Assembly (NCBI GenBank): GCA_013001975.1
Contig: JABDKX010000162.1
Location: 1-64,000, forward strand
Reading direction: 5' to 3'
Source of the DNA: Saprospiraceae bacterium
Lineage (GTDB): Bacteria > Bacteroidota > Bacteroidia > Chitinophagales > Saprospiraceae
DNA length: 64,000 nt
The notes beneath the pieces were generated by a model. The model was not told the DNA's origin. It made no database searches and saw only the letters and a list, made by a program, of their open reading frames with translations. A program made the position numbers and the translations under genes. Below, in pieces: positions 25,320 through 45,369 of this stretch (position 1 is the stretch's first letter; the number at the start of each line of letters is the position of its first letter).

Positions 25320-26075
25320 CTAAAATTCAAAATATTTTGAAAGCTCAGTCTTTTTTATAGACTTTTTGTTGCTAATCAAGCTGTTTTGTTTAGTAAGTAA
25401 AGCTAATGTCTGGCGAATTCTCTTAACTGTATAATAATGAAGCTTAATAATATCAGGTTGTTTAGATTTTGAAAACTTCGTTATTGACCGTTTAAGTAAG
25501 ACATTTAGAAATAAAGAATACTTCTTTTCGGCTTCTTCAACGCCTTCTTCTAGAATTGAAATTAAATAATAGTTACAGTTAATTGTTTTCTGGTCTTCAA
25601 ATACATCTTCAATATCATCGTTGATTTCTGTCACTAGGTCGTATATCCTCCAATCTGATAGTTTTATAACATTATCATCGTTTTTATACTTGTCATAGAT
25701 GATTTCACGTAATAACCTGACATCGCAAGATTTATAGTAATAAAAGTATTCTAAGCTTATCCTTGTGGGTAATTTATACGACCTTAATTGTGACTCATGC
25801 AACTCATATCTTTTGATGTGGCTTGTCATTTTCTCTATCTGATCATGATCATAACCAAGCTTTGCAATGCTGTTATTTATTGCCTTCCAATACTTACTTA
25901 ATTTCTTAGGCTTTAGTTTCCAATTTTGCTCTAAATAGCCATCCAAATTGTATATTTTTTCTTGAATTTTAACAAGTTTGGGCATGAGCGATTTCCTTTC
26001 TTTTTTTCCCAGAAAGCTTAATAAAAAGGGCAGTTTCCTATATTCAAACAGGTCATTTATCTTATTCTCCATCAA
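25320..26075 (-). CDS. hypothetical protein, helical, no recognised domain
   Basis: 251-aa ORF; ATGA overlap with the upstream gene supports coding; no motif recognised. Confidence 0.75.
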   Translation of the reverse strand: MMENKINDLFEYRKLPFLLSFLGKKERKSLMPKLVKIQEKIYNLDGYLEQNWKLKPKKLSKYWKAINNSIAKLGYDHDQIEKMTSHIKRYELHESQLRSYKLPTRISLEYFYYYKSCDVRLLREIIYDKYKNDDNVIKLSDWRIYDLVTEINDDIEDVFEDQKTINCNYYLISILEEGVEEAEKKYSLFLNVLLKRSITKFSKSKQPDIIKLHYYTVKRIRQTLALLTKQNSLISNKKSIKKTELSKYFEF

Positions 26076-27019
26076 TCAGTTAGAATTTTATTTTTTTGCT
26101 TAATTAGTTGTTCAATATTATTTGTATTCTTTTCATCCTCCCCTTTCAACCCCAGTAGAATTCGTTGAATTTTATCTACAACGGATTCAACATTAGCCAT
26201 CGTACTTTTAATTTTTTGCTGAATAATCCAATCAGAGATCAGATTATCAAAAAAGAAATCAGTAAACTGGCCAAATTGAGCGCGAGACAAATCAAATTTT
26301 ATGTAATTATCGCCAAGATCAGCCAGTTCTTTTGAAAACATGTCTAGTCGGACTTGAGCGGCTGTTAAATTTTTAATGGCATAATCAATGGCATTATTTT
26401 TTACATATCCGCGTCTTCTTGAATGATTTGTATTTTGCCATTTGCCCCAATCTCTAGCCTTTCTGAGATATGAGATCACAACATTTAAAAGTTTTAAGCT
26501 ATTTTCTCCTTCAATAACAGCTTCGGAGATTTCTTTTCTTATGGTGTATGATCTTTGAATCTGATTTAAGATGTTCTCCAAGTTTGCTTTTACAGCTATA
26601 TTATCAGATCTGAGGATCTCGCTTTTACGCATATCCATAAGTTGTTTTAACTCAGTTTTGACTTCATCTATATTCTTAGCTTTTTTAGATAATAAGTCTC
26701 TTTCGAATTCTAACAGCTCTACCCTTTTACAATATTCTTTGTATTTTAATGAAACCTCTAAATACTCTTGTCTCTCCTTTTCTAACTGCTCATACTTACT
26801 GCCTAACACCTTGTGAAACAAAGACTTAACACTTGTTCCTTCTAATTTTTCTATGTCCTTTAATTCTTTCTCTAAGTTCTTTTCATACACCCTAATTTTG
26901 GAATTCATTTCACTAATTTTGTCTTCAATATCCACTAGGTGAGCATTTACCTTTTCCAACTTGGTAAATTCATTCAGTTTCTCCTGAATTTGTTCTTGTA
27001 AATGCGTGATATTTTCCAA
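26072..27019 (-). CDS. hypothetical coiled-coil protein
   Basis: 315-aa ORF with extended heptad-like E/K/L-rich regions; translationally coupled (ATGA) to 25320-26075. Confidence 0.78.
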   Translation of the reverse strand: MENITHLQEQIQEKLNEFTKLEKVNAHLVDIEDKISEMNSKIRVYEKNLEKELKDIEKLEGTSVKSLFHKVLGSKYEQLEKERQEYLEVSLKYKEYCKRVELLEFERDLLSKKAKNIDEVKTELKQLMDMRKSEILRSDNIAVKANLENILNQIQRSYTIRKEISEAVIEGENSLKLLNVVISYLRKARDWGKWQNTNHSRRRGYVKNNAIDYAIKNLTAAQVRLDMFSKELADLGDNYIKFDLSRAQFGQFTDFFFDNLISDWIIQQKIKSTMANVESVVDKIQRILLGLKGEDEKNTNNIEQLIKQKNKILTD

Positions 27020-27138: not shown

Positions 27139-28050
27139 ATGGGAATTATAAGTGATTTAAAAAAACTATTTTTTGGAGCTTCATCGGTTGCAAAATCAGC
27201 CAGTTCAAATGCTGGAGAATTCATTAAGGAAGAAGGAAGTGAGCTGTTATCTAAAGCCAAGGATTTAGGTGAAAAATCTGGAGAAGCAATAGCACAAAAA
27301 ACATCTGGTTTAAAAGATTCAATTTTAGAAAATTCTAAAGAGCTTGTTGAAAAAGCTAAAGAAAAAGTCTCAGAAATAGGAGATAGTCCTGTCATTGAAA
27401 AAATAGGAGATATCGGAGAAGAAGTTGGAAATAAAATTTTTGATACTGGGGAAGAATTATTTCAAAAAGCAAAAGAAAAAGTTTCTGAATTAACAGATAG
27501 TCCAGCTGTAGAAAAAATGGGCGACATTAGTGAAAATGTTGGAGGCAAGGTATTAGATAAAGGAGAACAATTGGTTGAGAAGGCTAAAGAAGTTTCTGAA
27601 AATGTAGGTGGAAAAGTCCTCGATCAAGGTGAAAAGTTTATGGATAAATCTAAGGACTTAAGCCAAGATGTAGGAGAAAAACTTTTAGAAGTTAAAGATG
27701 ATATTGTTGAAAAAGCATCTGAATTGGCATCAAAAGCTAAAGACAAATTAGATGAGACAATGGATAAAGCAGATGCATGGGCCGAAGCAGAGAAAGCTAA
27801 ACCTAAAAAAGAATTTGCAGATGAAACACTAACAACCGGTGATTCCTTGTTAAAGGATACAGATGATTTCTTTTCGAAAGCTGATAAATTCGCTTCCGGT
27901 GAATATGATTCGTTTTCTGAAGGAAAAATAACTATTGAAGACAAAAAGGCTGATCTTCCTCCCAAAGAGATTGATAAAGCCACAAATTTTGATGATCTTG
28001 ATGGAGATGGCAATGAAATTATAGATGATGCCATTATTGATCCTGAATAA
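27139..28050 (+). CDS. LEA-like/amphipathic-helix repeat protein
   Basis: Repeats of about 38 aa, KAKEKVSExxDSPxxEKxGDIxExVGxKxxDxGExLxx; acidic tail LDGDGNEIIDD. Confidence 0.78.
   Translation: MGIISDLKKLFFGASSVAKSASSNAGEFIKEEGSELLSKAKDLGEKSGEAIAQKTSGLKDSILENSKELVEKAKEKVSEIGDSPVIEKIGDIGEEVGNKIFDTGEELFQKAKEKVSELTDSPAVEKMGDISENVGGKVLDKGEQLVEKAKEVSENVGGKVLDQGEKFMDKSKDLSQDVGEKLLEVKDDIVEKASELASKAKDKLDETMDKADAWAEAEKAKPKKEFADETLTTGDSLLKDTDDFFSKADKFASGEYDSFSEGKITIEDKKADLPPKEIDKATNFDDLDGDGNEIIDDAIIDPE
27352..27579 (+). repeat. two tandem 38-aa (114-bp) repeats, with a third degenerate copy following
   Basis: KAKEKVSEIGDSPVIEKIGDIGEEVGNKIFDTGEELFQ / KAKEKVSELTDSPAVEKMGDISENVGGKVLDKGEQLVE. Confidence 0.85.
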
Positions 28051-28109
28051 TTTTATTTATCAGGCAGCATATTGACAATGAATAGTATCTTAAAAATATA
28101 GAGACCATA

Positions 28110-28670
28110 ATGTCGCCCTTAAATTTGAATGCACATACCGAAAAGGAGCTTGTAAGCCTTTGTTTGAAAGGTAATAGAACTGCATGCCAACAGGTCTTTA
28201 GCTTGTATTCAAAAAAAATGATGGCATTATGTTACAGATTTGCAAGGGACAAAAGTGAAGCGGAAGACATGCTTCAAGAAGGTTTTGTAAGAGTTTTTGA
28301 TAAGTTGGATTTGTTTAGTGGAGAAGGGTCATTAGAATCTTGGATGAGAAGAGTCATGATAAATAATGCCCTTAAATACAAACAAAAATATGTTACACGG
28401 TTTAATTATTCTGAGATTGAAAACTATCATGTACATGATCCAAGTCCTTCGATAATAGATGAATTATCTGAAGGGGAGATTTTGGATGTGATCACTACCC
28501 TCCCAGATGGATATAGAACCGTTTTTAACCTTTATGTTATCGAAGGATATAGTCACAAAGAAATTGCAGATTTATTAAATATTGGAGAAAGTACTTCTCG
28601 TTCACAGTTAGTTAAAGCCAGAACATTGTTGAGAGATAAATTAACTAAAATAATCAGATTAGCAGGTTGA
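28110..28670 (+). CDS. ECF-type RNA polymerase sigma factor
   Basis: Region 2 RFARDKSEAEDMLQEGFVRVFDKLDLF and region 4 LPDGYRTVFNLYVIEGYSHKEIADLLNIGESTSRSQLVKART. Confidence 0.93.
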   Translation: MSPLNLNAHTEKELVSLCLKGNRTACQQVFSLYSKKMMALCYRFARDKSEAEDMLQEGFVRVFDKLDLFSGEGSLESWMRRVMINNALKYKQKYVTRFNYSEIENYHVHDPSPSIIDELSEGEILDVITTLPDGYRTVFNLYVIEGYSHKEIADLLNIGESTSRSQLVKARTLLRDKLTKIIRLAG

Positions 28671-29962
28671 AAAATTTTGATGAAAATATAAGAGATAAGG
28701 TTTTTAATTCTGAAATGGATGTTTCTGATCACATTTGGGATTATATAGATTCTCAAATAAGTACAAAAAATGAAAGATCAAGATATTGGCTCTTTTTCTT
28801 TGGCAGTATCATTCTACTTCCCATTTTATTTATTGGTACTTATTATGTTAATAACAATAACCTTTCAAATTCAGAATCAATTGTGGTCGCCAAGGATGTG
28901 AGCCAAGACAATATTTTACCTCATGCCGAAATCGCCTTAGACGGCTTGGAATCTTTAATCGAAGAGCGATTAACTGATGACCTCTCCCCTATTGCCAAAT
29001 CGAACAAAATTAGTCCACTGGTAAGTCAAAGCAGGAAGTCATTAAACCTTGGATTTCAGATTGCCAGTTTTAGAAAACAAAAGAAAGAAAATAACAATCT
29101 TCAAGTCATTAAGAATAATCCAACGAAGAAGTTTAATGCATTCTATTCACCATATATTGCTGAAAGATCTGCTAGCCCTCTGGATTTATTTGCCGCTAAG
29201 ACACAATGTCCAACTTTTCAAGCGCAAGGTAATTTTTCATCTATGTATACTTATGTAAATACCTCAGGCTATTATCCAATCATGATATTAAGTAGTGCTG
29301 GCGATGATGTTGGAGATTTTATAGCTAAACGTAAAAATTCTGAATCTTCATTGGTTTCATTTTCATTTGATGCAGGACTAGGTTTTGACTATCATGAAAA
29401 TTGGTTTGTTGAAACCGGATTGTCATACAATCAAACAAATGTCAAATTTTACAACAGAAAAGAAGACGTGATAAAGAACACTTTGAGGATTGTAGAGACA
29501 ACCTTAATCGACAATATCAGTGGTGATGAATATACTCAGATTGACACCTTTATTGATCAAGAAATTGGAGTGACAGAAACTGCTTCACTTAACACATTCA
29601 AACAAATTGATATTCCACTGCATATCGGATATAGGCTACCAGTTAGCAGAGTATTTGACCTGGCTGTTTCAGCTGGTGTCGTTGTAAACTTAAAAACTTT
29701 TAGCAAAGGATATATTGTTGATTCAAGTGGCGTTCCATATGAATTTACGAATCAAGCAAATACTGACAATTTGTTTAAAACTCAAGTCGGGCTGAGTTAT
29801 ACAGGACGATTTAATTTAGAAACAGAAATTTACCCCGATTTATATTTAAATGGTGGATTGAATTTAAGATATACTGGTGGCAATTTCAACAGTGTATCCA
29901 ATACAGTTAACCAAAGATTTTTCAATGTTGGCTTAGGTGTCGGCATGCGTTATAAAATTTAA
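28667..29962 (+). CDS. predicted single-TM plus outer membrane beta-barrel protein, putative anti-sigma/barrel fusion
   Basis: Short N-terminal cytoplasmic segment, TM helix YWLFFFGSIILLPILFIGTYYV, linker, C-terminal barrel-like strands; TTG start overlaps the sigma factor stop (TTGA). Confidence 0.75.
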   Translation: MKNFDENIRDKVFNSEMDVSDHIWDYIDSQISTKNERSRYWLFFFGSIILLPILFIGTYYVNNNNLSNSESIVVAKDVSQDNILPHAEIALDGLESLIEERLTDDLSPIAKSNKISPLVSQSRKSLNLGFQIASFRKQKKENNNLQVIKNNPTKKFNAFYSPYIAERSASPLDLFAAKTQCPTFQAQGNFSSMYTYVNTSGYYPIMILSSAGDDVGDFIAKRKNSESSLVSFSFDAGLGFDYHENWFVETGLSYNQTNVKFYNRKEDVIKNTLRIVETTLIDNISGDEYTQIDTFIDQEIGVTETASLNTFKQIDIPLHIGYRLPVSRVFDLAVSAGVVVNLKTFSKGYIVDSSGVPYEFTNQANTDNLFKTQVGLSYTGRFNLETEIYPDLYLNGGLNLRYTGGNFNSVSNTVNQRFFNVGLGVGMRYKI

Positions 29963-29988
29963 GAATACCGATTAAATTAAATATATTA

Positions 29989-30936
29989 ATGAGAAAATAC
30001 ATTTTCATATTAGTTGCAACATGTCTGATTTCTTGTGTTAAAGAAAGGGATCAATTCATTCCCAATAATGAAGACTACCCTACTAATGCATTGAAATCAC
30101 TTATTCCTTCAAAATCACTTCAAGTTAACTTGAAACATAATAAGGCTTACGAACTCACTACTGCTAATAATTCGTATCTAGAAATTGATAATGGCGTTTT
30201 CGCAGCATCTCTAGAAAACAATTCAAGCTATGATCTGAAGGTTATCGAATTAACAAGCTATGTTGATTACATATTGCAAAACGTAGACCATGAATCAAAC
30301 ATTGGGATCACCAACACTTTGTATTCATTCTATATTTCAGCTGAACAAGATGGAAACCCGCTTGATGTCCAAGAAGGCAAGTCTATGAAAATCAGATTTA
30401 CAAGTGAAAATATGGGAAGTAACTTGGCTTTAGGATATGGTCAATTAAAAGACAATATTTTAAAATGGGATTATTACTCAAGTAATTTAAATTCTAGAGT
30501 ATCATATATTGCATGGGAAACCATTGATGAAAATGGACAAATGAAAACAGAGTATGGTTACGAAATAATTGTAAATAGCCAAGGATGGTACTCACTAGTC
30601 ACTAAGGAAGGCGTTTCAAATGCTGGAAGCTCTATTTGCTTGAACTACAATCCAATTTATACCAACGAAAATACAGCGTCGTATTTATTGATGAATGATA
30701 AAAACTACATCTCGAAATTAAAAATGATCAATGATAACAGTTCATCATTTTGCCTTTGGGATTTACCTGCAACTGATGAAGATCCATATACCATTATCAG
30801 TATCTCCAAGACCGAAGATGGCCAATACCATTACTTCAAAACAGACGTCGAAATGGATGGCAGTGCTGATGAAATAAATGTTTTTCCATCTGAACTTAAT
30901 TTTGATGAATTAAGAACAGAATTAGAAAAATTATAA
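29989..30936 (+). CDS. hypothetical lipoprotein
   Basis: Lipobox MRKYIFILVATCLISC; follows the sigma/barrel genes by 26 bp. Confidence 0.75.
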   Translation: MRKYIFILVATCLISCVKERDQFIPNNEDYPTNALKSLIPSKSLQVNLKHNKAYELTTANNSYLEIDNGVFAASLENNSSYDLKVIELTSYVDYILQNVDHESNIGITNTLYSFYISAEQDGNPLDVQEGKSMKIRFTSENMGSNLALGYGQLKDNILKWDYYSSNLNSRVSYIAWETIDENGQMKTEYGYEIIVNSQGWYSLVTKEGVSNAGSSICLNYNPIYTNENTASYLLMNDKNYISKLKMINDNSSSFCLWDLPATDEDPYTIISISKTEDGQYHYFKTDVEMDGSADEINVFPSELNFDELRTELEKL

Positions 30937-44538: not shown

Positions 44539-45369
44539 ATGATAAAAATGAATTCCTTAGACATTCAAGGCCATCGAGGTTGTAGAGGTCTGTATCCAGA
44601 AAATACAATTGATGCTTTTGTACATGCTGCCAAACTAGGTGTAAATACTTTAGAATTTGATGTCGTCATTTCTAAAGACCATAAGGTTATTGTGTCACAT
44701 GAACCATTTATGTCGCATACAATTTGCACTGCTCCAGATAATAAAGAAATTACCGAAGAAACAGAATTAGACCACAATATATATGATCTTGATTATGCAG
44801 AAATAAAAACTTATGATAGTGGATCAAAATATTTTGATCGTTTTCCATTTCAGAAAAAAATAAAAACTTTTAAGCCAAGTCTGGCTGATGTTATTCAGGA
44901 AGTATCAAAACTGTCTCGTGATATATTTTTCAATATTGAAATTAAAAACAGACCTGAATGGGACACAAAATTTCATCCTCCTTATCGACAATTTGCGGAT
45001 TTAGTCATTTCAGAAATCACAAATCTTGGAATTTTTGAACGGACAACTGTTCAATGTTTTCAGATTCCTACATTACAATACATCAATCAAAATTATCCTC
45101 AAACCAAATTGGTTTATCTCATTGATAACTTAGATACCCCTATAGAAAATCTGAACAAGCTTGGGTTTACACCACATGTATACAGCCCATTTTACAAATT
45201 AGTAAACAAAAGTCTTATAGCGTTTGCAGAAGCCAATAAAATGCAAGTTATACCCTGGACAGTGAATGATACAATTGCCATGAAAGATCTTATCGAATTG
45301 GGGGTAACGGGTATAATTTCTGACTATCCAGACAAATTGATCAATTTACATAAGGAATTAACTTCTTAG
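44539..45369 (+). CDS. glycerophosphodiester phosphodiesterase
   Basis: DIQGHRGCRGLYPENTIDAFVHAAKLGVNTLEFDVVISKDHKVIVSHE; C-terminal VIPWTVNDTIAMKDLIELGVTGIISDYPD. Confidence 0.93.
   Translation: MIKMNSLDIQGHRGCRGLYPENTIDAFVHAAKLGVNTLEFDVVISKDHKVIVSHEPFMSHTICTAPDNKEITEETELDHNIYDLDYAEIKTYDSGSKYFDRFPFQKKIKTFKPSLADVIQEVSKLSRDIFFNIEIKNRPEWDTKFHPPYRQFADLVISEITNLGIFERTTVQCFQIPTLQYINQNYPQTKLVYLIDNLDTPIENLNKLGFTPHVYSPFYKLVNKSLIAFAEANKMQVIPWTVNDTIAMKDLIELGVTGIISDYPDKLINLHKELTS

Follow-up and report, generated by a model that had tools for sequence, protein, structure and literature searches.

A conserved, probable sigma/anti-sigma locus of the Dma/Reo class in Saprospiraceae, with a predicted promoter and candidate regulon

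The locus at 28110-30936 of the window, the 64-kb stretch of Saprospiraceae DNA that was analysed, is a real and conserved representative, in a new lineage, of a kind of system that has already been described. Taken as a whole, it very probably operates as an autoregulated switch that responds to envelope stress and belongs to the Dma/Reo class, with its own operon, a secreted protein and a small RNA (sRNA) as predicted targets.

Locus layout and architecture of the 431-aa protein

The first gene of the operon (28110-28670, +) encodes an ECF sigma factor of 186 aa, recognized by NCBIfam, by family alignment and by Pfam matches to Sigma70_r2 (E=5e-12) and Sigma70_r4_2 (E=3e-14). It shares 4 bp (TTGA, with a TTG start) with the ORF of 431 aa that follows (28667-29962, +), and a lipoprotein gene (29989-30936, +) starts 26 bp past the stop of that ORF. 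Upstream, the gene of a 303-aa amphipathic-helix (YtxH/apolipoprotein-like) protein (27139-28050, +), assigned by alignment and by its conserved neighbourhood, ends 59 bp before the sigma ATG. The original prediction had given these ORFs with their coordinates, strand, overlap and 26-bp spacing, all of which were borne out by an ORF check, and its identification of the ECF sigma factor agrees with the two Pfam matches.

The structure of the 431-aa protein was modelled by AlphaFold2 (AF2) from an input alignment of 35 sequences only, giving helices at residues 4-14, 21-32 and 36-64, disorder at residues 65-188 and strands over residues 192-430, mostly with pLDDT 90-98. Residues 1-35 (28667-28771, +) form a predicted cytoplasmic sigma-binding element of two short helices, based on alignment, AF2 and a profile match, and carry the consensus FDxxxxxKLxxxExxVxxxxWxxI in the family alignment; no curated anti-sigma family of Pfam matched this segment, and profile searches with the anti-sigma family against solved structures returned nothing credible. 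The helix at residues 36-64 (28772-28858, +) is the predicted single inner-membrane transmembrane (TM) helix, with a hydropathy peak of 2.02 at residue 40. The residues STKNERSR preceding it are net basic, so that by the positive-inside rule the N-terminus would be cytoplasmic. A predicted periplasmic linker of 124 residues (65-188; 28859-29230, +), disordered in the AF2 model and evident in the alignments, leads to an OmpA-like outer-membrane beta-barrel at residues 192-430 (29240-29956, +), which was assigned by AF2, Foldseek and hhalign. Using the model as a Foldseek query, OmpA (9fzc) was retrieved with E=2e-7 and a TM-score of 0.68 by target, and NspA in the PDB was also similar. The window protein alone remained below the Pfam threshold (OMP_b-brl, PF13505, E=8e-6, 26.5 vs a cut-off of 28.7 bits), and PF13568 was matched by 18 of the 32 family members at E<=0.01. 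The elements of the original prediction thus reappear in the model: the single TM helix, the N-terminal helices, now two short ones in a segment homologous to that of Bacteroidales members, and a confident barrel, not the barrel-less model that it had named as contrary. Its long linker is likewise present, and the estimate of about 150 aa was close to the length modelled.

Between the TM helix and the first strand of the barrel lie 127-240 residues in one family alignment and 119-229 in the other, giving a minimum of 119 residues over the two. Taking about 0.35 nm for each residue, the shortest linker still has a contour length of about 40 nm, which exceeds the width of a periplasm. This length is consistent with the need of a chain spanning the periplasm and is no proof of spanning. 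Going by the model, one chain apparently runs from the cytoplasm across both membranes and would hold the ECF sigma factor off. Its sole cysteine, Cys181 (29207-29209, +), lies just before the first strand and is conserved in 31 of 32 near relatives, whereas the four Bacteroidales members compared have no cysteine before the barrel. A redox function of Cys181 is no more than an idea; according to PMC9308784, which cites the original work, EcfO was first described in B. fragilis for protection against oxidative stress.

The lipoprotein of 315 aa, defined by family alignment and without a Pfam name, has the lipobox LISC followed by VKERD. The lipobox cysteine is invariant in the family, and K-D/E-rich residues come next in most members; as K-(D/E)2 is the surface-export signal of Bacteroidetes (PMC5080379), the protein may by analogy be surface-exposed. 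An identity as NigD was rejected on the grounds that the 16-member family gave no NigD match and an hhalign probability of 2.7%; PF22221 had no match in the own genome, where the controls were silent too. A solved-structure profile search with the lipoprotein family yielded nothing credible, and Foldseek of the lipoprotein model gave weak matches only, mostly to immunoglobulin-like structures. Members of the lipoprotein family come after the anti-sigma gene at many loci, but behind that gene in four genomes (G001, G005, G007 and G011) the lipoprotein is absent, and it is therefore not obligatory. The amphipathic-helix gene, whose product matches Pfam YtxH below threshold (E=1e-6), lies directly 5′ of sigma in nine genomes of the genus, in four further genera of the family and at one additional locus (L075). 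In ten of these loci, with one genome counted twice, it is flanked divergently by a coiled-coil gene (26072-27019, −). Two genomes (G014 and G033; L176, L179) carry the amphipathic-helix gene away from sigma, where it is instead paired divergently with the lipoprotein gene, an arrangement that suggests a link in function between these two genes.

Conservation of the pairing and relation to Dma and Reo

An ECF sigma gene was found directly upstream of 57 of 58 homologous barrel ORFs (58 of 59 including the window copy), counted over 60 fetched loci with barrel ORFs that lack upstream sequence left out; the same 4-bp overlap recurs in many of these pairs. Such a pairing is not due to chance, and the consistently adjacent sigma gene is what the original prediction expected of a survey of Bacteroidota. 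The exception (L053, G036:C91, 5273-6667) is a second anti-sigma-like barrel ORF without a sigma gene of its own; it follows, within the same array, an ORF for a lipoprotein-like product of 592 aa. Matches were present in 55 of 101 genomes, comprising the own genome and relatives, and a profile of 35 members matched 133 of 297 Bacteroidota genomes, where weaker matches may cover only part of the model. A contig search with the window anti-sigma protein alone gave no match; the sigma alignment did retrieve loci, which came from Saprospiraceae, Chitinophagaceae, Flavobacteriales, Cytophagales and Bacteroidales records, and some sigma factors of the same clade were followed instead by shorter ORFs. 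In the own genome (G000), further matches to the Dma profile lie at C194:5274-6851, C251:3-1193, C204:26767-27387, C115:32453-33244 and C80:10698-11156; those on C194, C115 and C80 adjoin an ECF sigma gene, and for the matches on C251 and C204 the sequence covered did not include the upstream part.

To the extent that sequence can show it, the 431-aa protein belongs to the already published Dma/Reo class. Using hhalign, the barrel of the window family was matched to the Bacteroidales barrel at 99.2% (E=6e-20) and its first 38 residues to the Bacteroidales N-termini at 97.6% (E=4e-12), with a score of 48.7 against 16.4 for the best of 60 column-shuffles, the homology being measured against Tannerellaceae, Parabacteroides and Dysgonomonas proteins rather than the Dma1/2 or Reo type sequences. 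Supportively, the order of sigma gene, TM-plus-barrel protein and NigD_N-like lipoprotein in Tannerellaceae and Parabacteroides loci (L096, L098 and L116) resembles that of the published Dma/NigD and Reo/NigD systems and so points to the same class. The Dma architecture is described in PMC13088901, citing Pardue 2024 PNAS (doi 10.1073/pnas.2321910121), and that of Reo from B. fragilis and Phocaeicola in PMC9308784 and PMC13114119; the novelty that the original prediction implied for a one-chain architecture therefore does not hold. Its reading of one polypeptide as anti-sigma factor and barrel is itself strengthened by the confident barrel, the homologous N-terminus and the adjacent sigma gene, with sigma binding and topology as putative parts.

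The likeness to Dma1 and Dma2 of B. thetaiotaomicron extends to the adjoining sigma gene and to a single chain from cytosolic domains to a C-terminal outer-membrane part, which is predicted likewise for the window protein; Das1 repression is relieved on loss of Dma1 (PMC13088901). A lipoprotein is found among the operon or regulon genes of Dma systems and also in the window operon, but here it is not NigD. The Das sigma factors that partner Dma belong to group ECF21, whereas the window sigma is placed as ECF by Pfam and NCBIfam only, and a vesiculation phenotype is recorded on the Dma side, whereas the window locus is known from sequence alone. In EcfO-Reo of Bacteroides fragilis and Phocaeicola vulgatus, the anti-sigma chain combines an inner TM helix with a C-terminal outer-membrane barrel, as is predicted for the window protein; an envelope-spanning chain is the prediction for Reo too, and the EcfO-Reo system is described as responding to envelope stress (PMC9308784, PMC13114119). 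Lipoprotein targets are shared with the predictions for the window system, but the targets described for EcfO-Reo comprise, among others, three NigD proteins and a gene for LPS glycan, whereas the predicted ones here are a lipoprotein of another family, a secreted protein and a candidate sRNA. FecI/FecR/FecA offers a more general likeness, in that an outer-membrane barrel signals via an inner-membrane anti-sigma factor to an ECF sigma; that system uses three proteins, including a TonB-dependent transducer, whereas one chain would do both jobs here, and neither a FecR domain nor one of a TonB receptor was found by Pfam in the proteins of the operon.

The predicted promoter and its candidate targets

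The motif GGCARC-N16-GTATCW was read from the short gaps between upstream gene and sigma gene compared across relatives, and its shape is that of ECF promoters. Its sole match in the 64 kb, where 0.07 were expected, is GGCAGC-N16-GTATCT at 28063-28090 (+), a predicted ECF promoter whose first base lies 47 bp 5′ of the sigma ATG. With a spacer of 16 the motif is present upstream of sigma in 28 of 139 sigma-Dma loci, window included, and because it was derived from some of the counted loci, the independent part of this result is the sharp spacer together with the loci outside the genus. Spacers of 15 and 17 occurred at one locus each, and all other lengths between 10 and 22 were absent from the 139 loci, for which 0.05 matches were expected in shuffles and 0 were found on the reverse strand. 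The motif is missing at the remaining 111 loci, suggesting that other clades use other promoters, and it is absent before the two further sigma/anti-sigma pairs from the same genome that were included in the comparison (L157, L158). The same motif stands upstream of a lipoprotein homologue located away from sigma (L179). The sigma operon is accordingly predicted from these conserved sites to be autoregulated via 28063-28090; the amphipathic-helix gene lies 5′ of this promoter and so is not obviously driven by it.

Genome-wide, the own genome has 8 exact matches vs 2 for the reversed control, several of them intragenic, and the many other matches inside genes were set aside as chance. One match, seen in one genome only (L246; G000:C100:19653, +), lies 34 bp 5′ of a glycosyltransferase family 4 gene (PF00953). 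Another (L346; G010:C230, about 13772-13640, −) is followed within ~100 nt by a terminator-like hairpin, with no same-strand ORF, and is possibly a second small RNA. In G000, G004, G008 and G013, the motif lies ~92 bp upstream of a gene for a secreted protein of 184-187 aa without a Pfam family (L248, G000:C155 from about 5959, +; L341, L343 and L345), which from this recurrence is likely a regulon member.

A candidate sRNA of ~105 nt was located in the upstream region of bshC (G000:C167, about 44803-44934, −; L263, L309; homologues L264-L275) from motif, terminator and conservation. Of the 13 genus genomes with a recovered locus, 11 have the strict motif 5′ of bshC and the remaining two have a near-match of unchanged spacer length, where the genome rate would give 0.0004 per locus; none of the 17 loci examined outside the genus has it. 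Over the 13 genomes, identity is 89% in the −35 element, 87% in the −10 element and 39% in the spacer, and a core of ~28 nt is invariant except for one base in a T-run, between flanks of 30-47% identity. The intrinsic terminator shows compensatory changes at two stem pairs, the five segments tested fold better than shuffles (z −3.3 to −4.5), and the segment from motif to bshC has stops in all frames. An RNA model built from these 13 genomes had strong matches in the same 13 only (E<=3e-13; next 5e-3), Rfam 15 gave no match above gathering score, and 11-mers complementary to the RNA core revealed no gene common to the genomes. Since a conserved, terminator-ended RNA intervenes between the promoter and bshC, the RNA is the likelier product, and bshC (bacillithiol synthesis) was dropped as a direct target. 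The simplest reading is a previously undescribed sRNA that depends on the sigma factor, with a bshC leader as a possible alternative. Enterobacterial sigma-E drives the sRNAs MicA and RybB, and in the window genome a predicted ECF-type promoter likewise precedes the candidate sRNA. The same holds for the RNA Rfp11 of Flavobacterium psychrophilum, with its ECF-type SM6 promoter (PMC9723704).

Alternative readings, proposed mechanism and meaning

A reading of the 431-aa ORF as nothing more than a small barrel of the outer membrane, with an unusually long N-terminal region and a signal segment, which would be a target gene of the sigma factor without binding it, appears highly improbable. The barrel is indeed the best-modelled part and residues 1-35 match no curated anti-sigma family, but the first 38 residues are conserved across orders as an element of their own, the sigma gene precedes all but one of the homologues, and published Bacteroidales proteins of the same architecture repress their own sigma factors (PMC13088901, PMC9308784). 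It is also improbable that a Dma-class protein does not span the envelope at rest, its linker being cut after insertion so that the halves act as separate receptor and anti-sigma factor. The linker is long, disordered and poorly conserved, as expected of a protease-sensitive segment, and regulated proteolysis is a common route of release for ECF factors. Against this, a linker of at least 119 residues in both alignments is consistent with the need to span the periplasm, and a continuous spanning chain is the published model for Reo and Dma (PMC13114119, PMC13088901).

Assigning GGCARC-N16-GTATCW to another ECF factor, with the window sigma reading something else, would accommodate the 16-22 sigma-like matches per same-genus genome and deserves some weight, though we regard it as unlikely. 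It bears on G003, G009 and G010 (82-89% complete), in which the RNA is present with no close sigma orthologue (best 38-44% identity), so that the promoter there may be served by a different ECF factor. In two of these genomes the promoters are degraded, which fits our model; G009 keeps the strict sRNA promoter, which does not fit. This reading has against it that ECF/anti-sigma operons are usually autoregulated, and that the motif stands before this operon in many genomes but not before the two other pairs of the same genome.

In the Dma/Reo-class switch that we favour, the two N-terminal helices would keep the ECF sigma factor at the inner membrane at rest, an anti-sigma function suggested by the published homologues, while the same chain would cross the periplasm via its disordered linker and be anchored in the outer membrane by the OmpA-like barrel. 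A disturbance of barrel, linker or outer membrane would be passed along the chain, and the signal would probably end in proteolysis or conformational release, freeing sigma. Free sigma would then transcribe the operon of sigma, anti-sigma and lipoprotein from GGCARC-N16-GTATCW, as predicted from the conserved sites, with the secreted protein and the candidate sRNA as further predicted targets. A bolder version, in which a spanning anti-sigma system reports the status of the outer membrane, possibly that of the Cys181 thiol, directly, and controls a trans-acting sRNA, the secreted protein and its own operon as a Bacteroidota counterpart of sigma-E and its sRNAs, is conceivable but somewhat doubtful.

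Collectively, these results take the Dma/Reo class beyond the gut Bacteroidales in which it has so far been studied and into environmental Saprospiraceae and Chitinophagales-type bacteria. New in this analysis, all as predictions, are the promoter, the non-NigD lipoprotein family, the upstream amphipathic-helix gene, the lone cysteine, and the candidate sRNA and secreted protein. The lower limit on linker length and the junction cysteine provide handles on what spanning chains sense and how sigma is released. A compact conserved module with a readable promoter makes the regulon searchable, which has so far yielded the candidate sRNA and the secreted protein, and the conserved module, the predicted promoter and the candidate sRNA merit follow-up.
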